Assembly (NCBI RefSeq): GCF_003952385.1 | Contig: NZ_CP034444.1 | Coordinates: 1,674,001-1,738,000, forward strand | Origin: Mesorhizobium sp. M1D.F.Ca.ET.043.01.1.1 | GTDB taxonomy: Bacteria; Pseudomonadota; Alphaproteobacteria; Rhizobiales; Rhizobiaceae | Length of the DNA: 64,000 bases | Direction: 5' to 3' | Shown: in pieces, positions 24,684-49,700 of the stretch | Numbering within the stretch: position 1 is the first letter of the stretch | How the letters are laid out: each line of letters begins with the position of its first letter | The notes under the pieces: model-generated | The model's input: the letters and a program-made list of their open reading frames with translations, nothing else | Database searches by the model: none | Told to the model about the DNA's origin: nothing | Position numbers and translations under genes: made by a program

Positions 24684-26105
24684 TCAACGTCTCAGCCGCC
24701 ATTCACCCTCGGCAAGCATCCTCACGAAAGCGCAGCCGCTCTTACCACCGGCTTTCGCTTCGGCGTCGGCAACGCAACAGGCGTCGACTTCTTTCGGCAC
24801 CAGGCCGCCACAACAGCCTTTCGAGGCGGCCGAGATCGAAGAGATGGATCTCGTAGTTGTGCAGACCCGGTGGTCTCGGGCGGCGCCAGATGCACCGCAT
24901 CGGCGGATGCCAGATCACCGGCAATTGCCGCAGCCACCGAGCGCACCTGTTCATAGCCGGTCAACAGCAGAAAGGTTGGCGCCCTGCCAAAGCTCTTGAT
25001 ACCGACGGTATAGAAGTCGGGCTCGGGGTGGCTGAGTTCACGGTGACCGTGCGGCGGAACATCGCCGCAAGAGTGCTCGTTTGGGTCGATAAGCGGCCCC
25101 AGCGCCTTGACGCCTTCGAGGCACGGATCAAGGTGAAGCCGAAGTTCTCTCGTAATCGACAGGTCCGGACGCTGACCGGTCGCGGCGACGATCCTGTCGA
25201 CGGGACCAACCGTTCGCTTGCCATCCCCCGATAAGCCTTCCACCACCAGGCGACCGTCGACTTCGCGAATTGCCGTTGTTGCAAAGCCGGTGATTAGCTG
25301 GACGCGGCCGCCCTCAACGAGATCTCTGGCATCCGATCCGAGCTCGCCACGAGCCGGCAAGGCATCAAGGTCGCCGCCACCGTAGATGCGGACAAGGTCG
25401 GTGCCACGCGTCAGCCATATCGCCGAAGTCCATGGTTCTGTCTTGGCAAGCTCGGCCAACTCCAGAAGAGCGTTAGCGGCCGAGTGACCGGAACCCGCCA
25501 CCAGCGTCATGCGGCCTGCATAGAGATGGCGGTCCTTACCCAGAACGTCCGGTATGCCATAGGCAATCCGGCTGCCGAGTTCCGCTTCGCCTTCGGCCGG
25601 TATGCCGCCCGCACCGAGGGGGTTTGGTGTTTGCCAGGTGCCTGACGCATCGATCACCGCACGGGCGCTGTTACGGCGTCTACCGTCAGCGGCGTCTACC
25701 AGAAGCATGAATGGCTTGTCTTCCCGGCCCTTGCTTAGGACCTTGTCGGCTCCCCATCGCGAGATCGCGACGACGCGCGTTGGTTTCGATAGACGGTGCC
25801 AGTTCGGGAAGACTGGCAAGCGGCGCTACATATCGGCCGACGATTTCAACGCCCGTTGGAAATGCCTCTGCTACTGGCATTCGCCATCCATGGCTCTCAA
25901 GAAGCTTTCGGGCGGCTGTGTCGACGCAATACCGCCAGGGGGTGAACACCCTGACGTGACCCCAATCGCGAAGGTTCGTCCCGACCTGGGCGCCAGCCTC
26001 GTAGAGCTTTACGGGGATTCCGCGGCTGACAAGGTGCGCCGCTGCGGCCAGGCCGACCGGCCCACCGCCTATTACGGCAACCGGAAGATTTCCAAGGTTC
26101 GTCAT
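24684..26105 (-). pseudogene. ArsR-linked FAD monooxygenase-like gene with two frameshifts
   Basis: The N-terminal part from ATG 26105 has the FAD site VIGGGPVGLAAAAHL and runs to about 25775, where a one-base shift is needed to go from SIETNAR to VVAISRWGADKV. The middle holds a second nucleotide site VAGSGHSAANAL and IVAATGQRPDL. A second shift near 24868 leads into a Cys-rich tail, KGCCGGLVPKEVDACCVADA to KSGC, ending at 24684. The fold is that of flavin-containing monooxygenases such as ArsO, and the Cys-rich tail plus the ArsR gene 52 bases upstream suggest metal(loid) handling. Both breaks are single-base, so sequencing error is possible. Confidence 0.75.
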
Positions 26106-26157
26106 TTTCCACCTTCCATGCCTCCAGAATTATCGAAATAATGGACAGAAGGAGAAG

Positions 26158-26496
26158 CTAAGCTACACCCTCCGCCTCCGTCGAAGCGCAGACGGCATCC
26201 GCGCAGCACTCGTCCGCTAGGAAGCCGATCAGGCCATTGATCACGGGATAGTTGGCGCGACAGATAAGTGTCGTTGCCTGCCGTTCCTGGGTCACCAATC
26301 CGGTCAGCACCAGGCGATGCAAATGATGCGAGAGCGTCGAAGCGGCAATACCCAGCGTCTCTTGAAGACTTCCCACCGGCCTACCCGCCTCGCCGGTTCG
26401 GACGAGCAAGCGATAGAGCTTGAGCCTCGTCGGATTTCCAAGCGCTTCGAGTTGTTTTGCTGCTTGTTCGAGTTTCATGGAAATAGGCATAGGCAT
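26158..26496 (-). CDS. ArsR-family winged-helix repressor
   Basis: 112 residues. Winged helix from residue 10 (AKQLEALGNPTRLKLYRLLV, recognition helix ASTLSHHLHRLVLTGLV). It ends with DECCADAVC, Cys residues placed for metal(loid) sensing at the C-terminus, and one Cys (LICRANY) before. It lies just upstream of the flavoprotein gene on the same strand, presumably regulating it. Arsenic is a guess from family and partner; start could be any of three nearby ATGs (26496, 26490, 26478). Confidence 0.88.
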   Translation of the reverse strand: MPMPISMKLEQAAKQLEALGNPTRLKLYRLLVRTGEAGRPVGSLQETLGIAASTLSHHLHRLVLTGLVTQERQATTLICRANYPVINGLIGFLADECCADAVCASTEAEGVA

Positions 26497-27478: not shown

Positions 27479-27817
27479 TCATTCCCGGCTGGTTCCGTAC
27501 TGTAGCACCTGGACCTTCTCCAGAGTCACCAGACCGCTCGGCATGATGCCCTCCAGTGCCGGCAGAAAGGCGTTGATCTTTTCCTCGCTGTCGACGATCT
27601 CGACGACGAGAGGCAAATCCAGCGACAGCCTGAGGATCTTGGCAGTGTGCAGCCGGCTGGAATGGCCGAACCCCAGTCCGCCGCGCAGCACCGTCGCGCC
27701 GGCAAGGTGCATCTCGCGAGCCTTGAGAACGATCGACTCATAGAGGGGATGGTCGGGACCTCGGTCGTCTTCACCGATGAAGATGCGGAGAAGCACGGCT
27801 TGTCGTGGTATATGCAT
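27479..27817 (-). CDS. DUF190 (PII-like) protein
   Basis: 112 residues of DUF190, a family with a PII-like fold often found beside fluoride exporter genes (crcB). Motifs: LLRIFIGEDDR, PLYESIVLKAREMHLAGATVLRG and FGHSSRLH. The ATG at 27817 is nine bases after GGAGG and is preferred over ATG 27823. It is the last gene of the riboswitch-controlled operon, 50 bases after the MutS-like gene, which supports a role in fluoride stress, possibly as a regulator. Confidence 0.85.
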   Translation of the reverse strand: MHIPRQAVLLRIFIGEDDRGPDHPLYESIVLKAREMHLAGATVLRGGLGFGHSSRLHTAKILRLSLDLPLVVEIVDSEEKINAFLPALEGIMPSGLVTLEKVQVLQYGTSRE

Positions 27818-27866
27818 GGTCATATTCCTCCCAAGCGGGTGTGGCACGCGGCGTCATCGCTTCGGC

Positions 27867-29394
27867 TTAGTCGTGGTTGACACCGCTGACTTCGTTGCGC
27901 GCCGTTCCTTCAAATATTCTATTGTACAGGTCCTGGCCGAAGCTCGTTTGCAGGGGTGCAGACTCTTTCAATTTGAAGGTTCTTTCCCCGTCCTCTCGCC
28001 TCTCGGCGCGCAGAAACATCGCGCTCCGCAGACTGCGTTCGTATAGGCCGTGGGCGAACTCGAAGAGATGGGTTACGAAGTATACCTTCATCCCGGTTTC
28101 GGTCATGGCCTCGACAATCTGTCTCGCGATCTCGGAGCCCTCGCGCTCGTTTGTTGCTGCAAATGACTCATTGAACAGCACCATGGAACCAGAGCCCAGG
28201 TGATCGACAATCTCGCTCATCCGGCCGAGTTCCTCGTCCAGCTTGCCGCTCTTCATCGTGGCGTCTTCCTCGCGCTTGAAGTGCGTGAATACGCCGTGAG
28301 CCACGTCCACAGGGAATCTGGCCGCCGCCACGAACATGCCGGCCTGCATCATCAACTGAGCCAGGCCGAGGGCGCGAAGGAAGATTGATTTGCCCCCCTT
28401 GTTGGCGCCGGTAATAACGACAAGGTTCTTGCCGTCGGCATGAAGATCGTTGCCGATCACCGGCTGCCCAACATTGAGGGCCAGGCAGACGTCATAGAGC
28501 TGCTCGGCAGACTGTCGCTCTCGGCCGATGCCGGACGGGATCGGAAAGCAGACGGGCTCGCTGATTCCGGCCAGGCGCTCATGGAGGTTGAGACATCCGA
28601 TGTAGAATGCCAGCTCCGTGCGCATCTGGGTGAAGAAGCTCAAAATGTGGTCGTTCGACTGCGCGAGCGCATTGGCGACGAGATTCACACCCGGTCCTGC
28701 AGCTCCGACAGCGCCCTTGCGCCCTGCTCGTCACGCGGATGGAGATGATACGCGAGGACCGGCGGTCCCTTCACAAAAAGGCGCCTCCACCAACTCCGGT
28801 CGATGTCGAGAGGCTTGCGGAGCACGTAGTTGCCGCCCTTGTTCCCGGCCTGCAGCTCGGCGCTCATCAGCACGCCGTCGTTCAGCTTCAACTGCCGGAG
28901 ATGATACTGGATTTCGACGAAGTGTCGGCGTCGAGTTCAGTGCAGATCATGGCAAAAAAGCCCTGGAACCCGGCGGATTTGAAGCCGGAAGCCTGCTTCT
29001 CGGCGATCGTCCTCAACTTGCGCAGGCGCGACACGAACATTGTCAGCACCTCGACCGAACGGCGCAGGACGGTATCGGGATATCCCATTAGGAGGCCCCA
29101 GTGGTTCTTCTTCTCGCTTTCGATCGTCTCCACGGCGAGAGCGTAGAGTTCGAGCGCCAGCTCCGAATGGCTCAGGCAATCCCGCAGGACTTCCTGCCGG
29201 AACAGGATCGCCTCCTCGTCCTCCAGGGAGGCTAGAATGACCTTTCGCGCGACATCGAGGAGGAATTCGTCCTGGCCTGCCATCGCCTTGAACAGAGTGT
29301 CGAGCTCGAGGTCCTGCACAAGCGGCCCTGCTTGCCAGGGCAGCGCCTCTTCCCGGGCGAAGTCTCTGTCCCTGAAAAGGAGAAAAGGCTTCAT
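27867..29394 (-). pseudogene. MutS-like ATPase gene A, two frameshifts
   Basis: Three successive frames make one MutS-family protein of about 508 residues. Part 1 (29394-28888) ends FFAMICTELDAD; one base must be added near 28920 to read FVEIQYHLRQLKLNDGVLMS. Part 2 runs to ALSELQDR near 28690 and again one base is missing before VNLVANALAQSNDHI. Part 3 contains Walker A ITGANKGGKS, Walker B SGSMVLFNESF and the helix FVTHLFEFAHGL. It lacks the N-terminal mismatch-binding domain of true MutS. Apparent four-base overlaps between the parts could mimic coupled genes, but conserved residues lie upstream of each 'start'. Confidence 0.8.
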
Positions 29395-31022
29395 GACGCA
29401 AGCCTGTGTTTCAGTTCTTCATAGGTGAGGCGATGCTGGCGGGCGATCGCCATGGCGTGGGACAGCCCGTCGGCGGGTCGTCGCACGATCTTGAAGGTTC
29501 GCCGGGCTGGAACCTTCGGATCGACAGTGCTGACCATGCTCACCGTCTTCTCGTTGAGCTTGCTCAGTTCGTCGACGAACGTGACGCACACGGCCAGAAG
29601 GTCGAGCCCGGAAAGCTCTTCCATGACCTTCCGGCCGAGGAACAATGCATCATGCAGCGTCGTGGAGGTGAATATCTCGTTCATGATGACGATGCTGTCG
29701 GGCGTTGCCTGACCGAGTATGTCGTGGATGCGCAGAAGGTCGTCTTCGAGCTTGCCGTGCAGCGACCGGGTGTCCTCTTCCTTTTCGAAATGGCTGAACA
29801 GCCGATCGAACAACAAGAGACGGGCGCTTTTGCCAGGCACCGGGCATCCGAGGCTCGCCAGGTAGTGCATTTGGCCGAAGGCGCGAGCAAAGGTCGTCTT
29901 GCCACCCTGGTTCGGCCCTGTCACCACGATAATGCGCTCGGGGCCCTTCAGATGAAAATCGTTGGTGATCACGACCGCTTTCTCAGAATGCAGCTTCTGC
30001 GCAAGAGCGAGATCGAAGCCGCCGGCGCTGCTGATATCTTTGCCGCCGCTCAGCATCTCAGGATAACAAAAATCGAGCCCATCACGACGTAGCGGTGCGA
30101 TGTATTCCAGAAAGGCGAGATAGAATTCCACCTGACGATCGAAGGCACTGATCTTCGGGTCGACAAAGGTCCCGCTTGCCTCGCAGAAGGCGTGAAGCGC
30201 CTGGAAGACTTCCGGAAAAAGCTGCGCCACCATGCCCAAGCACGGCCGCCTCGATATGGTTCATCTCGAAGAAATCGGAGAATTTGGCGAGATAGCTCTG
30301 TACGGCGCCGCGTTTGAATTTGTCGAAGGTCTTTTCGACCTCCGCGCTGTAATCCATTTCCATCTCCGGTTTGCGCACCCTGATGCGGCTGCCTTTGATG
30401 TGAAGGCAGTAGCGGATGTTGGAGAGCTCGTCCTTGATCCGCACCGCCTCCCGACGAAGCGACTGGAAATGGTTCGAGTTGGTGTGCTGGGCCACGAAAT
30501 CCCGGAACGCGATCAACCCGCGTGACCGCAACCGCGTGCGGGAGAAATCGCCTCCGAGATCCGTCACGGCGTCGCAATAGGCCGTAACGGCATCGAGAAC
30601 CACCCGCTCCTTTTGGTGGAGATAGTGGAGCTTGGCCGCCTTCGCGAGGGTCTCACGCATTTCGCGCATCCGCTGCGCAATCGCCTAACCGCCTGGTTCA
30701 CGGCGTCGTCTTCAAGGTCGCGGAATACCTCATGCCGGTAGCAAACGGCGCCTACCATGCGCGCCGGAGCATGGAAGAACGGGATCAGATTGTATTCGCT
30801 CCGGCCGGCGGTAACGGCGGCGACGATCTGGTCGAGATTGAGATCGACGAAGCAGGCCGGTTCGGCGTCGATTTCCTCTGGCGTGCCGCCGAGGATGCTT
30901 TCCGTAAGCCCAGGTTCTGGATGCAGCGCCACCCTTTGCTCGTCCGGCTGCAAGGCGCTCTTCGGACTTGCGCCGTCGGCAGCCGCGTCTCGCTCATACG
31001 CTATCACGGAACCTTTGGGCAT
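29391..31022 (-). pseudogene. MutS-like ATPase gene B, two frameshifts
   Basis: Starts at 31022 (Met-Pro-Lys-Gly-Ser-Val), eight bases after uspA. Residues 30-110 (FVDLNLDQIVAAVTAGRSEY, LIPFFHAPARMVGAVCYRHE) are the N-terminal helical domain. A shift near 30695 joins AVNQAVR to AIAQRMREMRETL; a second near 30238 joins NHIEAAVLG to MVAQLFPEVF. The C-terminal part has Walker A VTGPNQGGKTT, Walker B DSIVIMNEIF and VTFVDELSKLNEKT. About 543 residues when repaired. It overlaps gene A by four bases, so the two are probably co-translated partners, a heterodimer by analogy. Confidence 0.8.
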
Positions 31023-31029
31023 GGCTCCC

Positions 31030-31449
31030 TCATTTGACGACCAGCACATGGCAGGGTGCAAGCTCGACCAGGCGGTCCGTCGTGCTGCCGATCAGCCGAT
31101 TGTAGAGGGCGGAATGGCCCATATAGCCGATCACGAGCAGGTCGAAGCCACCACGTTCGATGAAGTCGATGATGCAGGGAACGGCGTGACCGGCGACGAC
31201 ATGGGTCTCGAGCTTCACCTGCGCGGCCTTGGCCTGAAATTGCGCCTGTGCGATCACCTTCTGGTACCGCTGATCTTCATCGAGCCTGTCCTCGACGACT
31301 TCGTCGATCGTCGCCGGCATACGCGGCATCTCCTCTACCGAGATCATGGCAAGCTTGGCCTTGAGCCTGTGAGCCAGCTTCAGGGCGACGGCGAGTGCCT
31401 TGGCGGCTCCGTCGGAGCCGTCGTTGGCTATGAGGATGTTGCCGTACAT
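31030..31449 (-). CDS. Universal stress protein (UspA family)
   Basis: 139 residues, single Usp domain. N-terminal strand NILIANDGSDGAAKA carries the conserved Asp for ATP; the C-terminal VIGYMGHSALYNRLIGSTTDRL is a variant of the G-x2-G-x9-G-[ST] nucleotide loop. It starts one base after the antiporter stop and ends just before MutS-like gene B, inside the riboswitch operon. Confidence 0.9.
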   Translation of the reverse strand: MYGNILIANDGSDGAAKALAVALKLAHRLKAKLAMISVEEMPRMPATIDEVVEDRLDEDQRYQKVIAQAQFQAKAAQVKLETHVVAGHAVPCIIDFIERGGFDLLVIGYMGHSALYNRLIGSTTDRLVELAPCHVLVVK

Positions 31450-31450: not shown

Positions 31451-32617
31451 TCAGGCCTCCTCCTCTGCCGGCCTCGCCGAACGAGCGGCGTTTTCGACCG
31501 GCTTGAAGTCCGGCTGGAACCAGCGCTGGGCTATGATTGTCGGCACCAGCGCGCTGCCGATTACGGCCGTCACCAGGATCGTATATTGCTGCTGGTCGAT
31601 GATGTGATTGGTGAGGCCAAAGAGCGCCGAGATCGTGCCGAAGGTCAGCCCGGTCGACATCAGCAGAGTGGTGTACATGCCTTCCCGCGCTTCGAAACGA
31701 AACGCCTTGGTAAGCGGCAGGATGCCGACGAATTTGGTGGCCATCTTGATCGCGAGGAAGACCGCGATCAGGCCGGCGGCCGAAAGAACGGCATGGAAAT
31801 CGACCAGCGATCCGGCCTTCAGGAAATAGAAAGGCGTCAGGATCGTGAAGGCGATGATGCGCATCCGGTGGGGAAGCTCCGGGTCGGCGAGGAAGGCCGG
31901 TGCCAGCGCCATGCCGACGAGATAGGCCGGAAGCACGGCCTCGCTGCCGGCAACCGAAGCGAGGCCGCCGAGGCCGAGTAGGACCAGGGAAATGAACTTC
32001 GTTTCCGGTTCGCTGACGCGGTGACCCACCCTTGCAAAAAACCACGGCGCGAAGCGTGGCAGCATCCAGAGCGCCACCGCCGTCACGGCGCCGAACAGCG
32101 CCAGCCAATAGTCGAAATGCGCAAAGACGACGCCGAGGGCGAGCACGGTGCCGAGATCGTTTATGAAGCAGGCGGCAAGAATGATCTTGCCCATCTCCGT
32201 CTTGTTGAAGCCGGTCTCGACCATGACAGCGTAGACGACGGCAACAGAGGTTGTCGAAAGCGATATCCCGGCGATCTGGGCTTGCGGCCAGGGCCAGCCG
32301 ATGGCGTAGTGGGCATAGAGCAAGACGCCGATATAGGGCGCCAGAAAACCGACGACGCCGATCGACATGCTCGATTTGAAGTGCTTGCGCACCACGGTGG
32401 GGTCGATTTCGGTGCCGGCCAGGAAAGTCAGCAGGATCGCCCCGAACCCGGCCAGAAAGTTCACCCATTCGGTGAGGTGCAGACCGATGGTGTTGCCGGC
32501 CACAGCCCCGACGATGATCTCCACAAGGGCGACCGACATCGCCACCCTGATCGAAATAACCGAAGCCAAAAGAGCAAGTCCTAACCAGACCGCAGAGACC
32601 AGCCAGACATTCTCCAT
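31451..32617 (-). CDS. CPA2-type cation:proton antiporter (KefB/NapA-like)
   Basis: 388 residues with about 11-12 membrane segments. FLAGTEIDPTVV near residue 65 and ACFINDLGTVLALG near 150 (Asn-Asp pair in the core helix of CPA2 antiporters) are visible. No C-terminal TrkA domain, so it is a short form. GAGGAG precedes the ATG. First gene after the fluoride riboswitch, so it may move protons, cations or relieve acid load linked with HF entry; direct fluoride export is not shown. Confidence 0.88.
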   Translation of the reverse strand: MENVWLVSAVWLGLALLASVISIRVAMSVALVEIIVGAVAGNTIGLHLTEWVNFLAGFGAILLTFLAGTEIDPTVVRKHFKSSMSIGVVGFLAPYIGVLLYAHYAIGWPWPQAQIAGISLSTTSVAVVYAVMVETGFNKTEMGKIILAACFINDLGTVLALGVVFAHFDYWLALFGAVTAVALWMLPRFAPWFFARVGHRVSEPETKFISLVLLGLGGLASVAGSEAVLPAYLVGMALAPAFLADPELPHRMRIIAFTILTPFYFLKAGSLVDFHAVLSAAGLIAVFLAIKMATKFVGILPLTKAFRFEAREGMYTTLLMSTGLTFGTISALFGLTNHIIDQQQYTILVTAVIGSALVPTIIAQRWFQPDFKPVENAARSARPAEEEA

Positions 32618-32680
32618 CGCGCTCTCCTCTTCCAGCCCGGCGGGCCGGCAGCGTTGGTAGCATGGTGGTGACGGGCAACA

Positions 32681-32703
32681 AAAAAACCCGCCTCGCGGCG
32701 GGC
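32681..32703 (-). terminator. Intrinsic terminator of the riboswitch leader
   Basis: On the minus strand GCCCGCC-GCGA-GGCGGG is followed by seven T residues. It lies between the aptamer and the antiporter start (about 60 bases before the ATG), the place expected for a transcription-terminating expression platform. Confidence 0.9.
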
Positions 32704-32740
32704 CGATCTCCTGACTCGACTCCCACCGCGCGTTTCCACT

Positions 32741-32793
32741 CGGCAGGAGTCATTAGCCTTTCAAGGCGGTTTTGGGGGACTCCATCCCCTTCC
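32741..32793 (-). promoter_or_regulatory. Fluoride riboswitch (crcB motif)
   Basis: Minus-strand RNA: GGGGAUGGAGUCCCCC, then AAAACCGCC UUGAAA GGC, then UAAUGACUCCUGCC. These blocks fit the crcB-motif: hairpin GGGG/CCCC with AUGGAGUC loop, AAACCGCC, GGC-UGAUG-like segment, and pseudoknot GGAGUC with GACUCC. It aligns nearly block by block with the Thermotoga aptamer as I remember it. A terminator follows at 32681-32703, so fluoride binding probably allows transcription of the antiporter-uspA-mutS-mutS-DUF190 operon. Confidence 0.92.
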
Positions 32794-32797
32794 AAAC

Positions 32798-32827
32798 AAC
32801 ATAGGAAGTCGAGCCGGAACTCGGCAA
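32798..32827 (-). promoter_or_regulatory. Sigma-70-like promoter of the fluoride operon
   Basis: Minus strand: TTGCCG (32827-32822), 18-base spacer, TATGTT (32803-32798). Transcription would begin about at the first G of the aptamer, 32793. Confidence 0.6.
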
Positions 32828-32867: not shown

Positions 32868-32896
32868 TTGAAATGTTACGGCCGTTACAATATGAT
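32868..32896 (+). promoter_or_regulatory. Promoter of chrB-like gene, predicts leaderless mRNA
   Basis: TTGAAA (32868-32873), a 17-base spacer and TATGAT (32891-32896). The predicted start of transcription near 32902-32904 coincides with the ATG at 32904. The spacer contains GTTAC-GGCC-GTTAC, a direct repeat around the palindrome ACGGCCGT, well placed for a repressor. Confidence 0.5.
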
Positions 32897-32903
32897 GATT
32901 GAC

Positions 32904-33446
32904 ATGGTAACTCGCCCATGGCTACTGCTGACCTACAAGGTCCCGCCCGAGCCCGCCGCCAGGCGCATCGCGCTTTGGCGGCGCCTGAAGGGGATGGGGG
33001 CGGTCTATTTGCAGAATGGCGTTTGCCTGCTGCCCAAGAGCGATGACCATGTCCGTCGTCTGAAGATGCTGGAAAACGAGGTCGCCGGGATGGGCGGCGA
33101 ATCCGTGATCCTGGAGACCGTCGCCCTCGATCGCGCGCAGGAGGAGAAGGTCATTGCCCGTTTCAAGGCCGACCGGGACGAGGCATACCGCGAGTTCATC
33201 GACAAATGCGCGGACTTCGAGGGCGAGATCGCAAAAGAGCGGGCGGCCAACCACTTCACCTACGCCGAGTTGGAAGAGAACGACGTCGACTTGAAGAAAC
33301 TGCAGGGCTGGCTCGAGAAAATCCGCAAGCTGGACTTCTACAATGCGGCGCTGGCCGTGGAGGCCGAAGAGCGCCTTCACGCCTGTGAAGCGCTGCTGGA
33401 CGCTTATGCCAAACAGGTGTTCGACGCTCATGACGAGAACCGCTGA
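32904..33446 (+). CDS. ChrB N-terminal-domain protein
   Basis: 180 residues. RPWLLLTYKVPPEPAARRIALWRRLKGMGAVYLQNGVCLLP is split here as TYKVPPEPAARR and RLKGMGAVYLQNGV, the hallmark of the ChrB N-terminal domain, followed by a long charged helical part. Full ChrB proteins regulate or help chromate resistance; this one lacks the C-terminal domain. ATG 32904 is taken because the promoter overlaps the upstream ATGs (32892, 32895). It overlaps the MFS gene by 17 bases. Confidence 0.8.
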   Translation: MVTRPWLLLTYKVPPEPAARRIALWRRLKGMGAVYLQNGVCLLPKSDDHVRRLKMLENEVAGMGGESVILETVALDRAQEEKVIARFKADRDEAYREFIDKCADFEGEIAKERAANHFTYAELEENDVDLKKLQGWLEKIRKLDFYNAALAVEAEERLHACEALLDAYAKQVFDAHDENR

Positions 33447-34683
33447 AGATCAGGCGAAAGAGGCGGCAGCAGCCGGCAATGCCGAGGGGCTCCGTTCGCA
33501 CTGGCGCGATGTGCCGACCGGCGTGTGGGCCTTGGGCTTTGTCTCGATGCTGATGGACATCTCGTCGGAAATGATTCACGCCCTGCTGCCGGTCTATATG
33601 GTGACGGTGCTTGGCACGTCCGCTCTGACCGTCGGCATGATCGAGGGCATCGCCGAGGCGACTGCGTCGGTGACGAAGGTTTTTTCGGGCGCATTGAGTG
33701 ACTGGCTGGGCAAGCGGAAATGGCTGGCGGCGTTCGGCTATGGCCTTGCGGCATTCACCAAGCCGATCTTCCCGCTCGCGCCGACAGTCGGATGGCTGGT
33801 GGCGGCCCGTTTCATTGATCGGGTCGGCAAAGGCATTCGCGGAGCGCCCCGCGACGCCCTGGTTGCCGACATCAGTCCGCCCCACCTCCGTGGCGCCAGC
33901 TTTGGCCTGCGGCAGTCGCTAGACACGGTCGGCGCCTTCCTCGGCCCTCTCATCGCAATCGGCCTGATGTGGCTCACGGCCAATCATTTCCGGACGGTGT
34001 TCTGGATCGCAGTGCTTCCTGCCTTTCTGTCGTTCGCGCTCATCACCATAGCTGTGCACGAGCCGGAGCGGCCCTCGAATCTTCGGCGCGTGAAGCTGCC
34101 GCTGCACCGGAGCGAGCTTGGACGCCTCGGGGCGACATATTGGGGGATCGTGGTCGTCGCCACCGTGTTCACATTGGCCCGCTTCAGCGAAGCGTTCCTT
34201 GTGCTGAAAGCACAGGCAATCGGGCTGCCCCTCATGCTGGTGCCTGCCGTGATGGTCGTAATGAACGTCGCCTACGCGCTGTCGGCATACCCTGTCGGGG
34301 TACTTTCCGACAGGACTGATCGGGTAACAATCCTGATCGCGGGCTTGCTGCTGCTTGCTGCCGCCGACCTTGCCCTGGTCCTCGCGCCGGGTCTTTTGGG
34401 CCTCGGCATCGGGGTGGTGCTGTGGGGCTTACACATGGGTTTCACCCAGGGCTTGCTCGCTACCCTGATTGCTGATGCAGCGCCCGCGGAGCTACGCGGC
34501 ACGGCCTTCGGAATGTTCAACCTGGCTACAGGTGTCGCACTGCTGGCAGCGAGCATGATCGCCGGAGGCCTGTGGGACGCGGTGGGTCCTGCCGGTACTT
34601 TCCTTGCCGGTGCCGGGTTCTCCGCGCTCACGCTGATTGGTCCGTTGGGATTGCGAACACGGCTGGCCTCTTCGGGGCGCTGA
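33430..34683 (+). CDS. MFS transporter
   Basis: 417 residues, 12 predicted membrane segments. MFS loop motif GALSDWLGKRKWLA near residue 75 and again GVLSDRTDRVTIL near 285; RVGKGIRGAPRDALVAD near 130 is typical of a subfamily often paired with ChrB-domain proteins. ATG 33430 lies inside the end of the chrB-like gene, so the two are coupled. Substrate unknown; chromate or another oxyanion is only a context guess. Confidence 0.88.
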   Translation: MTRTAEDQAKEAAAAGNAEGLRSHWRDVPTGVWALGFVSMLMDISSEMIHALLPVYMVTVLGTSALTVGMIEGIAEATASVTKVFSGALSDWLGKRKWLAAFGYGLAAFTKPIFPLAPTVGWLVAARFIDRVGKGIRGAPRDALVADISPPHLRGASFGLRQSLDTVGAFLGPLIAIGLMWLTANHFRTVFWIAVLPAFLSFALITIAVHEPERPSNLRRVKLPLHRSELGRLGATYWGIVVVATVFTLARFSEAFLVLKAQAIGLPLMLVPAVMVVMNVAYALSAYPVGVLSDRTDRVTILIAGLLLLAAADLALVLAPGLLGLGIGVVLWGLHMGFTQGLLATLIADAAPAELRGTAFGMFNLATGVALLAASMIAGGLWDAVGPAGTFLAGAGFSALTLIGPLGLRTRLASSGR

Positions 34684-35085
34684 GCTGCGCGCAAAGGCGC
34701 GGAGCCGGCCGGCGTTAGATCCCTGTGATGTCGGCATCGGAGCAACAACGATCTCCCGTGCGTTCGCGTGCTGCCGACGGTGTCTGCTTTGGGCGACGGC
34801 AGAGTTGAACTCTGGGGACGGTACTGGCCCATTCTGGCCAATAGCGATCTGCTTAGTCGATGGCGGCTTTTGACCCTCTCGCGAAGTTTCCGCTGCGCAG
34901 CGGATGGCCGACTTGGGTCATCAGTTCCGGTTCCGGAAGGAAATTCTTGCGCCGCCACTTCCAGACATTTCTGGTCCTATTAAGTGGACCTTCAGGCTGA
35001 GGCCGAATCGACCCTCCTCGGACCCGTTTTCACGCGTCCATGATGGCTTTTGGTGTATTATTGTACTTTCATACAGGAGGGGGAC
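34684..35085. other. Intergenic region before the cyclase gene
   Basis: About 400 bases with no credible gene. AGGAGG-like bases at 35074-35081 are the ribosome site for the next gene. Confidence 0.5.
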
Positions 35086-38000
35086 GTGGACATCGCCACC
35101 TGGCTTCGCGGTATCGGCCTGGGACAATACGAGAAGGCCTTTCGCGACAACGATATTAGTGGAGAGGTTCTTGCCCACCTGAGGGCCGAGGATCTGACGG
35201 GACTCGGCGTGACCTCCGTCGGTCACCGGCGCAAGCTGCTCGATGCGATTGCCTCACTGGCCCTAGTTTCGAGGTCGGCGCCCATTGGCGCATCCGCATC
35301 GCTGAAGACGGCGCTGCCTTTATCTGCCCCTACAGAGGCGGAGCGGCGGCAGCTCACGGTGATGTTCGTCGACCTCGTCGGGTCGACCGAGCTAAGCCGA
35401 CAGCTCGACCCCGAAGAACTGCGGGCGGTGATGCGGCGTTACCGAAGCGCGGTAACCGAAGAAGTGGACCGTTTCGGAGGGCACGTCGCCAAGTTCTTGG
35501 GCGATGGCATTCTTGCATATTTTGGCTGGCCGAAGGCACAGGAGGACGCGGCTGAACGGGCGGTCAAGGCTGCCCTTCGCATTGTGGCAGCAGCCGGTGG
35601 AATCAAGACGCAAGAGGTTCCTCACCTTCGTGCACGCATCGGTATTGCCACAGGGTTGGTGGTCATCGGAAGTCTAGGGGAAGGGGAGGCAGAGCGCCCG
35701 GACGAGATCGTCGGGGAGACGCCGAACCTCGCAGCACGGCTGCAGCAGGCGGCAGGACCGGACCAGGTTGTGATTTCCGAAACCACCCGGCACCTCGTCG
35801 GAGGGATTTTCGACCTGGAGGACCTGGGAAGGCTGCCGATCAAGGGGATAGGCCCCTCGGTAGCCCTCTGGCGGGTCCACGGCATCGGGCGCAGTGAAAG
35901 TCGGTTCGAGAGACTTCACGGCACGATGCTCACGCCGTTCGTCGGCCGAGGCCGCGAGATTGATCTGCTGCTCGAGCGCTGGGGGCGGGTCAGGCGAACG
36001 ATGGGCCAGGTTGTCCTCGTAACCGGGGAACCCGGGATCGGAAAATCGAGACTGGTGCGCTTTTTCGGGGATCGACTGAGAGGGGACCGGCTCCAGGCAA
36101 TCCATTTCGACGCCTCGCCGTACTACACGAACTCGGCGCTACGGCCCGTCATCTCGGAAATCCGGCGCTCTGCGGAGTTTGCAAACATTGACCCGGACAA
36201 AACACCGTTCAGGAAGCTCGAGCTTCTTCTGGGAAGGGCTTTGTCCGATACCACCGGCGCCATCCCTGTCATCGCCGATCTGCTCGGCGCTCGAACCGGC
36301 GAGCAGCATTCGTTACGTGATCTGACCCCTCAGCAGAGGAAGACCATAACGTTTGCAGCGCTGCTGAACTGGGTTGAGGAGCTCGCGACGCGGCATCCGC
36401 TGCTCATGGTCGTTGAGGACGCACAATGGCTCGACCCGACGACGCTGGAACTGGTCGATCGGATCAACGATCGGATCGCCCAATTGCCCGTGCTGCTGCT
36501 CGTCACTTTTCGGCCGGAGTTCAAGCCGACCTGGAGCGGCGCACACGTTGACTGGATCGTGCTCGAACGGCTCGATCCGATTGAGGCGGCCGCAGTAGCC
36601 GAGGCCGTTGCGGGCAAGCGTCTTCCGCAGGAAGTCTTGAACGAGATCGTCGCGCACACCGACGGCGTTCCGCTGTTCATCGAGGAATTGACCAAGGCGA
36701 TGCGCGATCTCAACGTCCTTGTCGACGCAGGAGATCACTTCGACCTTTTGGGATCTCTGCCTGCAGTCACGGTTCCCGTGACACTTCAGGACGCGCTGAT
36801 GGCTCGGCTCGACAGCCTGCCGCCCTCCGCAAGGCATGCCGCGCAAGTCGGTGCCGTGATTGGGCGGGAGTTCGATCGTGCGCTGCTGGCGAGCGTGAGC
36901 GACATGCCTGCCGGTGAATTGGAGACGGCGCTCTCGGAACTGATCGGAGCCGAGCTAATCTTGAGCGGCGGCACCACGGCCAGCCCGGCAAATATCTTCA
37001 AGCACGCTCTCATTCAGGACGCCGCCTACGAATCGCTCCTCAAAAGGCGCCGCCGGGAACTGCACGGCGCGATTGCCGACGCGCTGGTCAACAGATTCAA
37101 GGACACGGCCACAGCTCATCCCGAACTCGTCGCCGGCCACTACGGCAGGGCCGGGCTCGTCGAACAGGCAGTGCCATATTATCAGGCTGCGGCACGCACG
37201 GCGATCATGCGCTCGGCGACAAGAGAAGCGTTGGGCCAGCTCAATACCGGTCTCTCGCTTCTCGAAACGCTGCCGGAAGGCTTGGAGCGCAACCGACTTG
37301 AACTCGGGCTCCGCCTTGCGCTCGGCGATGCGCTCCGGGCGGCTAGAGGCACGGCGGCGGTCGAAACGGGCACCGCTTATGCTCGCGCCCGATTCTTGGC
37401 CGGGCAAACGGGAGCGGAGCACGAGAACCTCCGGGCCTGCTATGGCGAGTTTCTCTGTTACTACAATCGCGCGGAGCTCGATCGCGCGCGCGAAGTCGAA
37501 AACGAGCTGATGCGCGCGGCGGCGCGCGCATACGGCGAGGGTGGCCCAATCGGAGCGGACGCAGCCGGATTCGTTGCCCTTTGGATGGGCGATTTTGCCA
37601 CCGCACGCTCTTTCCTGGAACAGCGGGTCTCGACGAAAGCACCTGTCCTGGACCCTCTGCTCGGTGCGGACATCGCCGACGCCGGACCGAACCTCTACCT
37701 TGCCCGGACGCTGCTCATTCTGGGCTACCCCGAGCAGGGGTACCGGCGGTGTCGGCAGGGTCTGGAAACTGCGGAGAAAACGCGCCAGCCCTTCGCGATC
37801 GCGTTGGCTCTCGCCAACACGTGCGTCTACTACCACTTGTGCAAAGACTGGCTCGCCCTTCGGCGCGACAGCGAGCGCCTGATTGCTCTCGCGTCCGAAA
37901 AGGCCATGCCTGCAATGTTGAACAAGGGACGGGGCTTTCGAGCTGCCGCACTCATCGCTGAAGGAAATGCAACCGACGGCCTCGAGACCCTCAAATCCTG

Positions 38001-38481
38001 CTACGAGCACGACGTGAACGCCGGTTACCTGGTGATGATGCCGTACTACGGGTCTATTCTGGCTGAGGCTTACCTTAGTAGTGGCAACGTTGAAGATGCG
38101 CGACGCGTGCTCGACGACGCGTTCGAGCGTGCGACTTCGACCGGCGAGCGTTGGTTTGATGCCGAGCTGTACCGACTGAAAGGGGAGTTTGCTTTGCGCG
38201 AGCCTGGTCGCGACGGCGACTTGGCTGTGGAATCTTTCGGCAAATCGGTAGAGACTGCCGGGGCGCAGGCCGCCAAATGGTGGGAGTTGCGAACTGCGAC
38301 GCAACTCGCACGCCTGTGGGCAGAGCGAGGCGCCGGGGAGAAAGCCCACGATTTTCTGACAAACGTTCGCGACTGGTTCACCGAGGGTTTTGAAACTGCC
38401 GACGTCAGAGAGGCCGAGGCCCTGCTCAGCGAGCTGGAGCGTGCTACGCTATATGGCTCGCCCTCGGCTCGGCGTGAATAG
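35086..38481 (+). CDS. SAM-domain / class III nucleotide cyclase / AAA ATPase / TPR protein
   Basis: About 1131 residues. Residues 1-60 form a SAM domain (WLRGIGLGQYEKAFRDNDI, LTGLGVTSVGHRRKLL). Residues 90-265 are a class III cyclase domain: VMFVDLVGSTE with the first metal Asp and KFLGDGILAYFGWP with the second. Residues 285-560 are an AAA-type ATPase: Walker A GEPGIGKS at about 313-320 and Walker B LLMVVEDAQWLD. The rest is helical TPR-like repeats. GTG 35086 follows CAGGAGGGGG. Such proteins are common in rhizobia; cyclic nucleotide made and signal sensed are unknown. It stands alone. Confidence 0.9.
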   Translation: MDIATWLRGIGLGQYEKAFRDNDISGEVLAHLRAEDLTGLGVTSVGHRRKLLDAIASLALVSRSAPIGASASLKTALPLSAPTEAERRQLTVMFVDLVGSTELSRQLDPEELRAVMRRYRSAVTEEVDRFGGHVAKFLGDGILAYFGWPKAQEDAAERAVKAALRIVAAAGGIKTQEVPHLRARIGIATGLVVIGSLGEGEAERPDEIVGETPNLAARLQQAAGPDQVVISETTRHLVGGIFDLEDLGRLPIKGIGPSVALWRVHGIGRSESRFERLHGTMLTPFVGRGREIDLLLERWGRVRRTMGQVVLVTGEPGIGKSRLVRFFGDRLRGDRLQAIHFDASPYYTNSALRPVISEIRRSAEFANIDPDKTPFRKLELLLGRALSDTTGAIPVIADLLGARTGEQHSLRDLTPQQRKTITFAALLNWVEELATRHPLLMVVEDAQWLDPTTLELVDRINDRIAQLPVLLLVTFRPEFKPTWSGAHVDWIVLERLDPIEAAAVAEAVAGKRLPQEVLNEIVAHTDGVPLFIEELTKAMRDLNVLVDAGDHFDLLGSLPAVTVPVTLQDALMARLDSLPPSARHAAQVGAVIGREFDRALLASVSDMPAGELETALSELIGAELILSGGTTASPANIFKHALIQDAAYESLLKRRRRELHGAIADALVNRFKDTATAHPELVAGHYGRAGLVEQAVPYYQAAARTAIMRSATREALGQLNTGLSLLETLPEGLERNRLELGLRLALGDALRAARGTAAVETGTAYARARFLAGQTGAEHENLRACYGEFLCYYNRAELDRAREVENELMRAAARAYGEGGPIGADAAGFVALWMGDFATARSFLEQRVSTKAPVLDPLLGADIADAGPNLYLARTLLILGYPEQGYRRCRQGLETAEKTRQPFAIALALANTCVYYHLCKDWLALRRDSERLIALASEKAMPAMLNKGRGFRAAALIAEGNATDGLETLKSCYEHDVNAGYLVMMPYYGSILAEAYLSSGNVEDARRVLDDAFERATSTGERWFDAELYRLKGEFALREPGRDGDLAVESFGKSVETAGAQAAKWWELRTATQLARLWAERGAGEKAHDFLTNVRDWFTEGFETADVREAEALLSELERATLYGSPSARRE

Positions 38482-38935
38482 CCTTGGCCGTTTGTTGGTG
38501 GAAGGGGCAGCGCGTTCAACGAACGCGGTGGCGCCAATTGCAGTCATTCCAGTCTTTCACGATCGAGAAAAAACGAATTGCCCAGATTCGCTTCTGCGTA
38601 AAGCGGTCGCTTGGTGCCGACCTTCTTTCCGACGTTCCAAGCTACGCGCTCGCGTCTAGCATCATCGAATTGAGAATGGCGCATGTGAGTTCTCCTCGGC
38701 CGGGATTAGCCGAAGTATAAAGGTGCAGGGCATTCGCCGCTTGGGGGCGGTAAGCGGACTGGCGGGTTTTGGCGTCGGAAGAACGATAGCGGACGCAACT
38801 GTCAGAAGGACTGATGCCTTGGCCTGACCCACCCCGGACGTTGAGTTGACCCAAGGCAACAGTTGGAAACTGGCGCCGGGAACGGTCCTTTGGTTGCCGC
38901 TATCTAATGAAGATTTCCGGAATGGGGACTTCAAA
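38482..38935. other. Intergenic region, nothing recognised
   Basis: About 450 bases between the cyclase gene and the 3' end of the methyltransferase gene. No protein-like frame or RNA structure recognised. Confidence 0.5.
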
Positions 38936-39622
38936 TCAGCAGCGTCCGAGGATATCGACCTTGATGGGTTGGTCGAAGACGAACGAACCCTCACTATTAC
39001 GGTGCGCCGCTGCAAGTACGTCTGCTATTAGGGCGGATTTGTCTTTCTCCACAATGTCGCGTCGCGATAGATCGACAGCTACGACGCGATCCAAAAAGTC
39101 TTCCACTGTTCGAAAGACTTCTCGACGAACATAGTTCAGCGTGGTCATCCGGATGAGCATTCCAGAGAGTATGGCTGTTTCGATTGCGCGTTGTGCCGCT
39201 TGCCGGACAACGGTCTCGTCTTCGATCAAGAGAAGGGCGGAGAAGAAGTTGCCGGTGGGCAACGGCTCGATGATGATCACAACGCCGTCTGGCCTAACAA
39301 CACGGCCAGCTTCGCGAAGCGCTGCCTGCATCGCCATTTCGGGAACGTGGTGGAGCGCGTTGATCATCACGGCAATGTCGAATGTCGCCTCGTCAAAAGG
39401 AAGCGCCTCGGCAACACCTTTGAGGAAGCTGACCTGCGGAACAGCAGCGGTGGCAGCCCGTATAGCGTCCACTCCCGGATCGAGAGCGGTTACATATGCG
39501 CCCTCAGCAGCAAGTTGCCTCGCAAAACTGCCGGTGCCGCAGCCGATATCTAGAATCCTAAGCCCAACGATCGATGGCCGCACCGATCTGATCACTGCCA
39601 ACGGACCGTCTATACGTTGCAC
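38936..39622 (-). CDS. Class I SAM-dependent methyltransferase
   Basis: 228 residues, UbiE/Methyltransf_11 type. Motif I ILDIGCGTGSFARQLA near residue 23, motif II ALDPG, motif for substrate side FDIAVMINALHHVPEM and GRVVRPDGVVIIIEP. Its ATG lies 10 bases inside the end of the flavin monooxygenase gene, so both belong to one minus-strand unit. The product methylated is unknown. Confidence 0.88.
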   Translation of the reverse strand: MQRIDGPLAVIRSVRPSIVGLRILDIGCGTGSFARQLAAEGAYVTALDPGVDAIRAATAAVPQVSFLKGVAEALPFDEATFDIAVMINALHHVPEMAMQAALREAGRVVRPDGVVIIIEPLPTGNFFSALLLIEDETVVRQAAQRAIETAILSGMLIRMTTLNYVRREVFRTVEDFLDRVVAVDLSRRDIVEKDKSALIADVLAAAHRNSEGSFVFDQPIKVDILGRC

Positions 39623-40920
39623 TGCTCGTTCCCTTGACCGGCGACCGCGGCCAAGCTAGCGGCGCGTTCGTCTGCTTCCTCCTGAGGTCGACTCACCTTT
39701 GTTGCGATGTGGCTCACCAGATGGTCCGCCTCCTCTGCAACGGCCGGAATGGTGCCTGATTTCCGCGTCACCGCAAAATCGAGGCCGGCGAAATAGAGCC
39801 CGGGAATGGTGCCTATACCGTCCTCGTGCTTCGGCTGGCCGGCCTCATCGAGGGTCCCGGGAATCTTCACCCATGAAAAGTCGCCCGAGAATCCGGTGCA
39901 CCAGATGATCGAGGAGATGCCGCTTGCGGCCAAGTCGATCGATCGGATTGGCGGGCTCGGCACGCTCGACGCAACCGTTTCGGCAGGATCATCCTCAGCC
40001 GGCGGCGCATCGATGCCGGCGCGCTCGATGTACTCGTCGATCAACCGCTTCGCGTAGGCCGAGGCTTCGTCTGCGAAGCGCATGTGGTCGTCGACGTCGT
40101 CACCGAAGGCCAGGCTGCCATTCACGATGCCATTGAAACGGCCGAGCAATACGACCCCTTGGGCGCTAAGCGACTGCAGGCTGATTGTGTGGGTCGCGCC
40201 GAGCAGCGGGCGCGGCGGCGGCCTGCCGCCGTTTTCCAGGATGAGCTGACGGAGCGGCACGTCGGCAAAGCCGGAGATGGTGAGCCAGTTGAACGAGTCG
40301 CCACCCCGGTAGCGGCGCATTAGGCGGCCAGTGCGGCTCGTCGCCAGAAATACCCGACGTCCGGCTTGCACCAGATCCTCGGCGATCTGGCCACCCGATT
40401 GACCACTCCCGACGACCAGCACGGCGCCCTCAACAAGCTCGGCCGGATTGCGGTAGGCTGAGGAATCGACCTGGCGAACAATGGTCGGCAGGTCTGACCA
40501 CCAGGATGGCCGGACCTGGCGGCACTGGTTGCCCGTTGCAATCACGATCGAATGGGCCAGAAGCGTCTCGCAATCCGTCGTGACCCGGTAGGTGCCGTTC
40601 TCGGAATCCAGCCGCTCAACCGCCACCCTGGTGCGCACCGGCAAGTGGTACCGGTCAACATAGCCTTCCAGATAGGCGACGAATTCGTGGTGCGTTATCG
40701 CGCCCCAGGGGTCCGGCCCGTCGTAGGAGTCGCCGGGCAGCATGGTGCGTATGTTCGTCGAGTTCAGACGGAAGGAGTCCCAGCGCTGAGTTCGCCACGT
40801 CTCGCCTATGCAGCCTCGCTCGAGAACCTGGTGCGTGCAGCCACGTTGTTGCAGGAAATAGCTGACGCCAAGCCCGGCCGAGCCAGCGCCTATGACGACC
40901 GCATCAAGAATCCCTCTCAT
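39610..40920 (-). CDS. Flavin-containing monooxygenase-like FAD oxidoreductase
   Basis: About 436 residues. FAD site VVIGAGSAGLGVSYFL near residue 8, NADP-site VVGSGQSGGQIAEDL near 175, and IIWCTGFSGDFSW near 340, as in bacterial flavoprotein monooxygenases of the CzcO/YhiM-like group. Start ATG 40920 (Met-Arg-Gly-Ile-Leu-Asp) puts the FAD loop at the usual place; the longer frame begins 38 codons upstream. Coupled with a methyltransferase. Confidence 0.87.
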   Translation of the reverse strand: MRGILDAVVIGAGSAGLGVSYFLQQRGCTHQVLERGCIGETWRTQRWDSFRLNSTNIRTMLPGDSYDGPDPWGAITHHEFVAYLEGYVDRYHLPVRTRVAVERLDSENGTYRVTTDCETLLAHSIVIATGNQCRQVRPSWWSDLPTIVRQVDSSAYRNPAELVEGAVLVVGSGQSGGQIAEDLVQAGRRVFLATSRTGRLMRRYRGGDSFNWLTISGFADVPLRQLILENGGRPPPRPLLGATHTISLQSLSAQGVVLLGRFNGIVNGSLAFGDDVDDHMRFADEASAYAKRLIDEYIERAGIDAPPAEDDPAETVASSVPSPPIRSIDLAASGISSIIWCTGFSGDFSWVKIPGTLDEAGQPKHEDGIGTIPGLYFAGLDFAVTRKSGTIPAVAEEADHLVSHIATKVSRPQEEADERAASLAAVAGQGNEQCNV

Positions 40921-41215
40921 GTTCCCCCGCCAAAATCGTGCCGCCGACAACGACTGCATGTGAGGGCGAACGACACCAGGCTCACCCTGCAAATGCAGCA
41001 GCATACTGCAAAGTGCTGTTTCCGGAAATTCCAAAGGACGAAAGCCACCCCGAATCCAAGCGCCCCCTGCCAGTCTCTTCTAATTACGAATATCGTCTGC
41101 AAACGGGTGAAACCGGTCATTCACGGGTGCGGTGCCAATGACTGATCTTAAGGCGCAAAGCCGCCTTGTCGCTTTCGGGGCCGAGATCGGAACGTCCGCT
41201 TTCGGGATGATTGGG

Positions 41216-41659
41216 CTAGAAAGCCGACCTTTTCACCCAGCGTAGCGCCGACCGCTTTGCGGCCCAGCGGACGTTCGGATACTTGCAAGAACTACTCTCA
41301 CTACGGAACTCGCCGTACATCGAATCGGGCGGTGCGAAGAAGCAGTTCATATACTCCTCACTTGGATGCAGGCAGATATGAAAATCGTGGTCACCGGACG
41401 GCAGCGCGTCTCTATATGGAATCTGAAACAAATGCTGTCGGGTCACCAGGTGGTGGTCGCCAGGAAGTAGTGTAACGGAAAAGCCGCTCGGTCCAGTCTT
41501 CACCGATGCGCCCGGGATGCGCTCGCAATCGCCTCCCAGGTCATCTCCCTTGCAGCAAGCTGGCGGATAAGGCCAGCCGCGCACCGCATCATGCGCGCCC
41601 GCGCTTCCGCCCGATATCAACTCGCAAGCTGCCGCCAGTACAGCCGTGGGTTTCGCCAT
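41216..41659 (-). CDS. Secreted Cys-rich protein, uncharacterised rhizobial family
   Basis: 147 residues. Weak signal peptide (AVLAAACELISGGSAGA) then HDAVRGWPYPPACCKGDDLGGDCERIP, FSVTLLPGDHHLV and HICLHPSEEYMNCFFAPP. Proteins with GW-YP-x-x-CC and a final C-x-F-x-PP are widespread in rhizobia with unknown role. The tail after APP is longer than usual, perhaps from a late frame change. Six Cys suggest disulphides in the periplasm. Confidence 0.65.
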   Translation of the reverse strand: MAKPTAVLAAACELISGGSAGAHDAVRGWPYPPACCKGDDLGGDCERIPGASVKTGPSGFSVTLLPGDHHLVTRQHLFQIPYRDALPSGDHDFHICLHPSEEYMNCFFAPPDSMYGEFRSESSSCKYPNVRWAAKRSALRWVKRSAF

Positions 41660-41822
41660 CAAGGTTGGACCTGCTACCCCTCGTCGCCAGTCGGCATGAT
41701 CGGCCAAGACAACCTTGGTGTAACGAAAGGAAACCGATCAAACGCCGATTTTCTCCCGATCTGGAGTTTGATATGCTCATGATCAAGGGGTTCGACGTTC
41801 TGCGCATGCAAAGAGATGCGGG

Positions 41823-43512: not shown

Positions 43513-43585
43513 ACGGCAAGCGACAGTCTGCATGATCGAGGGGGCGCATTCTGTTCGCACGAAGGCACCGTAAGGAGGTATCGCC

Positions 43586-43882
43586 ATGATTATCCGCATT
43601 TATCGCGGCACGGTCTTTGCTGGAAAGCAGCGTGTCTGGCAGGAGCGTGTTGAGTCGCTTTCTATTCCCTGGCTGAGGAAGCAGGCGGGCCTCATCGCCT
43701 TTTACCCCGGTAAGCCACCTGCGGAGAGTGCGGGCAGGACGTTCTGCATGGTGATGGTCTGGGATGGCCTGGAGTCGGTGAAGGCCGCTATCGGGCCAGA
43801 CTGGAATAACGCGATTTATCATGGCGATGAAGCCGAGTTGATCGAGTCTGCTCAAGTCGAGCACTTCGAGCTCTTTCCGTAG
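43586..43882 (+). CDS. Antibiotic biosynthesis monooxygenase-like (dimeric alpha-beta barrel) protein
   Basis: 98 residues. MIIRIYRGTVFAGKQ start, LRKQAGLIAFYPGKP, FCMVMVWDGLESVKAAIG and HFELFP at the end fit the ABM ferredoxin-like fold. AAGGAGG lies 8 bases upstream of the ATG. Small ABM proteins have varied functions (monooxygenase, haem handling); none can be assigned. It lies 73 bases after the regulator/TPR gene. Confidence 0.75.
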   Translation: MIIRIYRGTVFAGKQRVWQERVESLSIPWLRKQAGLIAFYPGKPPAESAGRTFCMVMVWDGLESVKAAIGPDWNNAIYHGDEAELIESAQVEHFELFP

Positions 43883-43982
43883 GCTGCCGAGTGCAGGGCA
43901 ACAATGGGGCCGAAAGCGGACAGGCAGGTTCCAGGCGTGAATTCCTTTTAACGCGGACGCTCAATGCGGCGCTTCAAGCACC

Positions 43983-44231
43983 CTAGAATCGAACCCAAAA
44001 CTTGCTGCGCCTCCAGCGTCTCTTGCGCCACAATTCATGAATTATCCACACCAAATACAGGAGGCGACGCCTCAGATATTGCCCAGCGTAACCTGCATCG
44101 CGATAGTCCGTAGTGAAATTTTCGATACTTGCACGCGAGGGCGCCGCTTCAACCACGTGACCCTTACGCTGCAACTTCTTGACGGTGCTCACTCTTGAGT
44201 AATGCGAACCGCCGATGACCACAATTTTCAT
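43983..44231 (-). pseudogene. N-terminal fragment of an NAD(P)-binding (SDR-like) protein
   Basis: MKIVVIGGSHYSRVSTVKKL resembles the start of atypical short-chain dehydrogenases, whose loop would read GGTGxIG; here the second and third glycines are lost. ENFTTDYRD follows and the frame then becomes a basic, non-conserved tail. Probably a decayed fragment. Confidence 0.35.
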
Positions 44232-44252
44232 ATCGGCTCTCCCCGTGAGCAA

Positions 44253-45038: not shown

Positions 45039-45055
45039 GGCAGAGGGACATTAAG

Positions 45056-46100: not shown

Positions 46101-46109
46101 TCTGCGCAA

Positions 46110-47522: not shown

Positions 47523-47537
47523 GATCGCTCCTTGCGA

Positions 47538-49531: not shown

Positions 49532-49700
49532 GATGCCCTCCGAAGTTCGAACGCGCCGGCAGAATAGCATCTTCGCCAGTCGATTTAACACGGATTTAAC
49601 GGCGGCCCTGCGGACTTGCCGCAATGGTTCACGCCCGGCTGAACAGCCGCAAATCGCGTGTGTGACAAGCTTCGACCGTAATCTGGAACGGGAGAGCAAA

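Follow-up and report, generated by a model that had tools for sequence, protein, structure and literature searches.

The fluoride riboswitch, or crcB motif, has been reviewed (PMC7266159, seen in excerpt). Among the genes placed under its control in excerpts of Weinberg 2010 (PMC2864571) are mutS, transport genes for K+ or Cl- and genes of formate hydrogen lyase. According to a section of PMC11139923, Na+/H+ antiporters are the most common riboswitch-linked class after the exporters. The fluoride operon of Enterobacter cloacae FRM is given in part of PMC5533749 as ppaC-uspA-eno-gpmA-crcB-orf5249, and passages of PMC6317114 mention an E. cloacae plasmid that carries mutS, Kef and CrcB, without tying mutS to fluoride there. 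Apart from Weinberg 2010, the matches listed from the open-licence literature include none that treats a fluoride-linked MutS pair.

The locus described here was found in a stretch of 64,000 nt, referred to as the window, which covers positions 1,674,001-1,738,000 of the forward strand of NZ_CP034444.1 from Mesorhizobium sp. M1D.F.Ca.ET.043.01.1.1. Five tightly spaced genes on its minus strand follow a fluoride riboswitch in the order antiporter, Usp, MutS A, MutS B and DUF190. With a probability of about 0.8 this locus is a fluoride-switched accessory operon which would have lost a crcB pair of its own and for which fluoride export would be provided from a second locus of the same genome.

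Riboswitch leader and its alternative helices

The leader contains the following features (window positions).

32737-32798, minus strand: fluoride riboswitch aptamer (crcB motif, RF01734), found by cmscan and found again by the whole-genome search
32718-32751, minus strand: OFF stem of 11 pairs, in which the 3' pseudoknot strand and the next bases (32751-32741) pair with 32728-32718; from sequence and fold
32695-32729, minus strand: candidate antiterminator helix of 8 pairs, 32729-32722 with 32702-32695; from sequence and fold
32680-32702, minus strand: intrinsic terminator with a 6-bp GC stem, a GCGA loop and seven T; from sequence, fold and terminator scan

A preliminary description, made from the letters of this DNA, had placed a crcB-motif aptamer with the pseudoknot GGAGUC/GACUCC at 32741-32793 of the minus strand and a seven-T terminator at 32681-32703. 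Both were borne out. When the whole window was searched with cmscan, the covariance model RF01734 matched with 56.4 bits as compared to a gathering threshold of 34 (E 5.8e-13), from position 1 to 64 of the 64 model positions, and this was the sole Rfam match at gathering level within the 64 kb. The pseudoknot strands are GGAGUC at 32783-32778 and GACUCC at 32751-32746 of the minus strand. A terminator scan yielded a GC hairpin with a T run at 32704-32685 and on (one found versus 0.4 expected in shuffles), the seven T ending at 32680. Terminators overlap the motif in many cases, as stated in an excerpt of Weinberg 2010 (PMC2864571). On the minus strand no promoter of the sigma-70 consensus type was detected, and a tRNA scan of the window gave no match.

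The OFF stem, the antiterminator and the terminator are three mutually exclusive helices. The OFF stem uses the aptamer's own GACUCC strand, and the antiterminator excludes both the OFF stem and the terminator. Folding of the leader up to just before the 3' arm of the terminator gave the antiterminator (-22.4 kcal/mol) if the aptamer strand was withheld and the OFF stem if this strand was free. With the whole terminator present and the aptamer strand withheld, the minimum-energy fold was the terminator (-26.4 kcal/mol) and not the antiterminator, so that the proposed ON state must be kinetic. Ten leaders were aligned, that of locus L047 being left out as its 3' part differs. All six pairs of the pseudoknot were found in all ten leaders, 9 to 11 of the 11 pairs of the OFF stem were kept, and the terminator stem had five or six of its six pairs, with two-sided changes in L041 and L044. 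The antiterminator kept six to eight of its eight pairs with changes such as T-G to T-A or C-G, and was weaker in L038 (6/8) and in L039, L041 and L044 (7/8). Some compensatory changes across the ten leaders thus appear to favour a three-helix switch.

Without fluoride the 3' pseudoknot strand would join the downstream OFF stem, and the terminator would be free to form. With fluoride the pseudoknot would hold the 3' strand, and the segment freed in this way would pair with the emerging 5' arm of the terminator, leading to read-through. Activation by fluoride is the expected direction of gene control. That the riboswitch controls the antiporter/Usp/MutS/DUF190 operon, as had been suggested, is supported on sequence grounds.

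Operon genes and broken MutS-like genes

The features downstream of the leader are listed below.

31451-32617, minus strand: CPA2-type cation/proton antiporter, 388 aa (PF00999, 134.4 bits)
31030-31449, minus strand: universal stress protein (Usp), 139 aa (PF00582, 95.8 bits)
29391-31022, minus strand: MutS-like gene A, broken into pieces 31022-30567, 30669-30085 and 30239-29391 in different frames, with MutS_V on the last piece
27867-29394, minus strand: MutS-like gene B, broken into pieces 29394-28888, 28891-28685 and 28688-27867 in different frames, with MutS_V on the last piece
27824-27866, minus strand: junction between MutS B and DUF190 at which loci L036-L039 and L047 carry crcB-crcB; from gene order in relatives
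27479-27823, minus strand: DUF190 protein, likely start at 27823, reading frame open from 27847 (PF02641, 126.6 bits)

An antiporter, UspA, two MutS-like ATPases and DUF190 had been named as the genes of the operon. Domain matches of 134, 96 and 127 bits confirmed the antiporter, Usp and DUF190, but the MutS-like genes turned out not to be two intact genes, each being spread over three frames. The antiporter scored 115 bits with the CPA2 model TIGR00932, which is below the cut-off of 238. It resembles NapA, and its nearest solved relatives are the Na+/H+ antiporters 4bwz (E 1.7e-9), 5bz3 and 5bz2. In an alignment of 34 antiporters, comprising the window and 33 of 37 related loci (L061, L062, L068 and L071 were dropped), D154 aligned with Asp157 of 4bwz and was Asp in 33 of the 34 sequences, and K295 aligned with Lys305 and was Lys in all 34. 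Asp157 and Lys305 of 4bwz are what we take to be the cation site. Structural matches of the DUF190 protein were PDB 2dcl and 1o51. Divergent from the operon, at 32868-34683 of the plus strand, lie a ChrB-N-like gene and a gene for an MFS transporter; in L041 and L044 a relative of the latter with 60-62% identity comes after crcB-DUF190, and others occur near further antiporter loci at lower identity.

In M. hawassense (L049) each MutS orthologue is contained in a single open frame. A 7.2 kb alignment of the window with this locus, at 90% identity, revealed four frame breaks of one base each in the interior of genes; both MutS genes have two of them, and antiporter, Usp, DUF190, ChrB and MFS have none. 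Of the other single-base differences one was located at the start of gene A and the others in the leader. Programmed frameshifting was rejected as an origin, the breaks being four in number and none of them present in the single-frame relatives.

The breaks might instead be sequencing or assembly errors, the pair being intact and active in the living strain, an explanation that deserves serious consideration although we judge it the less probable one. The dN/dS values of the window pieces versus L049 (0.15-0.30) are close to those of intact pairs (0.14-0.23), which fits a recent decay as well as errors in the assembly, and dN/dS thus does not tell the two apart. Against errors speaks that all four internal breaks of the 7.2 kb fall into the MutS genes and none into their neighbours, that long open reading frames (1609, 1143, 1020 and 831 aa) occur elsewhere in the window, and that MutS B of the window has Ile in the P-loop where ten of ten aligned orthologues have Thr. 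This Thr is found in 25 of 27 B copies, and besides the window L109 departs from it too (Arg). The pair is damaged also in L105 and in L035, where it runs into a conjugation gene, and is annotated as split in L108 and L111; genome G243 harbours one undamaged and one damaged copy. Positions 35000-54000 of the window match M. hawassense in scattered pieces only, and the comparison of frame breaks is that of the 7.2 kb stretch. At 24725-26488 (83% identity to M. hawassense) length differences were seen in or near an FAD-oxidoreductase-like gene, which is perhaps another decayed gene.

The MutS-like pair in other genomes and plasmids

The proteins of the pair are about 500-550 aa long and are encoded by adjacent genes. 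A and B align over 431 columns with 99.9% probability, which makes them paralogues. In ten pair proteins scanned, only MutS_V exceeded the Pfam cut-off, weak AAA matches remained below it, and no match to MutS_I, II or III was listed (some of the A proteins were N-terminally trimmed, that of L037 was not). MutS models reached at most 78 bits versus cut-offs of 400-642 in the four proteins scanned, and the models for MutS, MutS2 and KamC all stayed far below their cut-offs (KamC NF052383, at most 72.5 bits versus 300). Walker A is present in the pair proteins, and Walker B reads N-E, not D-E. This was the case in all 28 A copies and all 27 B copies read, no B copy being available from L035, and it includes the window pieces and copies without a leading riboswitch. 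The Asn aligns with the Asp of other E. coli MutS chains and with an Asn in 3k0s, an engineered mutant of E. coli MutS which a table in PMC3848065 lists as D693N. The same table includes 1NNE, a crystal of Thermus MutS that contains ADP and beryllium fluoride, and MutS sites can therefore hold metal-fluoride. AlphaFold2 models of the two MutS-like proteins, calculated from 7-sequence alignments, had mean pLDDT values of 51.4 and 48.9, which was too poor for a fold search.

The pair was followed through bacterial genomes with profiles of MutS B, which were derived from riboswitch-linked members and applied at E 1e-60, so that more distant relatives without a riboswitch could be missed. The samples consisted of 398 genomes at phylum, 394 at family, 397 at order and 376 at class level; they overlap in part and include the own genome. 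Besides the latter, matches occurred in one (phylum), two (family), four (order) and zero (class) genomes. Family genome G877, probably L038's own, was not counted. In the remaining eight loci (L092, L093, L094 and L101-L105) MutS A adjoins MutS B throughout, and RF01734 was located upstream on the same strand in all eight; it immediately precedes MutS A in L093, L094 and L101 and is 2 to 3.4 kb away in the other five. Between riboswitch and MutS pair stand antiporter and Usp in L092; in L102-L105 this interval holds, on the same strand, frames that are Usp-like, enolase-like and CrcB. A rough chance estimate of 2.6e-15 for the five order-level loci assumes random placement, and the profile behind it came from riboswitch-linked members. 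Genome G150 has eight fluoride riboswitches, and a stretch of some 20 kb of its contig 22 (about 157-177 kb) contains seven of them as a dense fluoride island, five of these in L101.

A search of plasmids with one MutS B protein (E 1e-50) yielded 48 records, from which 11 were fetched for diversity (L106-L109 and L111-L117), and all of these except L108 were scanned with Rfam. In seven of the ten, RF01734 was upstream on the same strand: MutS A comes right after it in L106, L107, L112 and L113, and it stands before the antiporter in L114, L115 and L116. In L109 and L111 it was nearby and did not lead the MutS pair, and in L117 there was none. Genomes and plasmids taken together, a fluoride riboswitch precedes the pair on the same strand in 15 of the 18 loci scanned; these loci are in part dependent on each other (L093/L094 and L104/L105 are from one genome each, and L114-L116 are close relatives). 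On the plasmids L114-L116, from Citrobacter, Klebsiella and Enterobacter, the order riboswitch-antiporter-Usp-MutS-MutS stands beside a P-type ATPase, crcB, phosphoglycerate mutase and eno.

The pair, seen mainly at fluoride-riboswitch loci in Pseudomonadota, Actinomycetota and Bacillota, could be a dedicated fluoride-stress ATPase, probably acting as one heterodimer, which would serve as an ATP-gated clamp or reactivase on fluoride-blocked enzymes or complexes and not in DNA repair, with the Asn averting trapping by metal-fluoride and ADP and the window copy being a decayed relic. Taken as a whole this picture is a long shot, and protection of the site from metal-fluoride by the Walker B Asn is speculation. 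A fluoride-induced DNA mismatch repair system appears less probable still: MutS domain V is clearly recognised as the ATPase domain and an excerpt of Weinberg 2010 (PMC2864571) calls the genes DNA repair genes, but domain V was the only one over the Pfam cut-off in the ten proteins scanned, with none of MutS_I, II and III listed, and the Walker B Asp is replaced by Asn in both paralogues.

Fluoride export and comparison with known systems

The host genome consists of one contig of 7.13 Mb. It was claimed that neither CrcB nor CLC-F is encoded here. This holds for the operon, among whose genes no CrcB or CLC was found, but not for the genome, which has a pair of CrcB genes at C1:927109-927868 with DUF190 after them. 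These are led by a second RF01734 riboswitch at C1:927985-928047; the genome-wide search found two fluoride riboswitches, that of the window operon and this one. The host CrcB proteins are 77-88% identical to those of a riboswitch-crcB-crcB-DUF190 locus in two genomes of the same genus (L006 and L007); a control search for CrcB was positive in 10 of 14 genomes. Three CLC-family genes (PF00654) are located elsewhere in the host genome, none of them near or behind either fluoride riboswitch. By motif scan one has GSGIP and GREGP, presumably motifs as in chloride CLCs, and the other two are without a readable filter motif.

A scan of genome contigs for the antiporter detected 37 loci, ranging from Mesorhizobium to Nitrospirae and Schekmanbacteria. 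In 31 of them RF01734 stands ahead of the antiporter by no more than 400 bp; in the other six it was missing at gathering level (L043), 522 bp (L060) or 1.9 and 2.2 kb away (L050 and L065), or the antiporter was cut or only partly matched (L068 and L071). A Usp homologue follows the antiporter in 32 of the 37 loci and matches to the MutS pair occur in eight. In five of these eight, from Mesorhizobium, Chelatococcus, Elioraea and a MAG (L036, L037, L038, L039 and L047), the MutS pair is separated from DUF190 by crcB-crcB. M. hawassense (L049) resembles the window in having DUF190 but no crcB at the operon and has a CrcB pair elsewhere in its genome, and in L068 no CrcB was found in the stretch left up to the end of the locus. 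DUF190 of the window is 84-86% identical to the operon DUF190 of L036-L038 and 63% identical to the copy at its own crcB locus. The simplest account of these sequence comparisons is that the window operon lost the crcB pair from a larger operon; that it was loss rather than gain is suggested by parsimony over few loci. The idea of a fluoride operon that manages without an exporter does not fit with crcB-crcB in the operon of five of the eight MutS-pair loci and a crcB pair elsewhere in the host genome. That the antiporter itself exports fluoride in place of CrcB, making the operon a self-sufficient new exporter system, is very improbable: its gene comes first behind the riboswitch in an operon without CrcB, and a riboswitch so commonly precedes it in relatives, but it keeps the Asp and Lys aligned with the residues of the 4bwz cation site, relatives have the crcB pair within the same operon and a riboswitch-led crcB pair is present in the same genome.

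In some of the relatives a fluoride riboswitch directly precedes a gene for a dynamin-like GTPase near antiporter-Usp (L050 at 4191-5993, and L052, L053, L055, L057, L058 and L059). Dynamin_N was detected in seven of nine proteins scanned from Nitrospira-type and other loci, and a dynamin family gene adjoins the MutS pair on two Burkholderia plasmids. No paper on a fluoride-riboswitch-linked dynamin was found in the open-licence literature searched.

In the preferred reading of the locus, the riboswitch would switch on an accessory fluoride-tolerance operon whose products may help the cell to cope after HF has entered. The antiporter would restore pH and cation balance, Usp would act as a stress protein, and DUF190 would be a small partner, often found after crcB. 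The exporter would come from the second riboswitch-led crcB-crcB-DUF190 locus, which also exists in genomes of the same genus. The operon's own crcB pair would have been lost in a lineage common with M. hawassense, and the MutS pair would have been broken since. Fluoride binding, read-through, the direction of the loss and the gene functions are the steps which we infer.

Compared to RF01734, the leader shares a full-length match 22 bits above gathering, the intact pseudoknot and a terminator after it, and has in addition, in the segment that separates the two, an OFF stem and a candidate antiterminator. Like other riboswitch-linked Na+/H+ antiporters, the antiporter comes first behind the riboswitch, and it is similar to solved Na+/H+ antiporters; no essential difference was seen. 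The window operon and the FRM operon are both fluoride-riboswitch operons with uspA, but the latter has crcB and fluoride-sensitive enzymes and the former has neither. The plasmid loci L114-L116 are much like the fluoride island of E. cloacae FRM. The preliminary description had expected a distinctive variant, a view which is weakened by the same gene order on enteric plasmids and by antiporters (PMC11139923) and mutS and K+ transport (PMC2864571) being already linked to the motif in excerpts of these papers. The window operon would rather be a derived form of a known operon type with an ordinary first gene. The tempting reading is thereby corrected: a fluoride operon without exporter could arise when crcB is lost and a second riboswitch locus covers export. 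With MutS, MutS2 and KamC ATPases the pair has in common MutS domain V with Walker A; it differs from them in its length of about 500-550 aa, in domain V as the only domain over cut-off, in being a pair of paralogues and in the N-E of Walker B. The pair with its Walker B Asn signature is a newer aspect than the operon. It turns an old remark on mutS under the crcB motif into a concrete protein pair with a diagnostic sequence signature, and thus provides a handle on fluoride survival beyond export.
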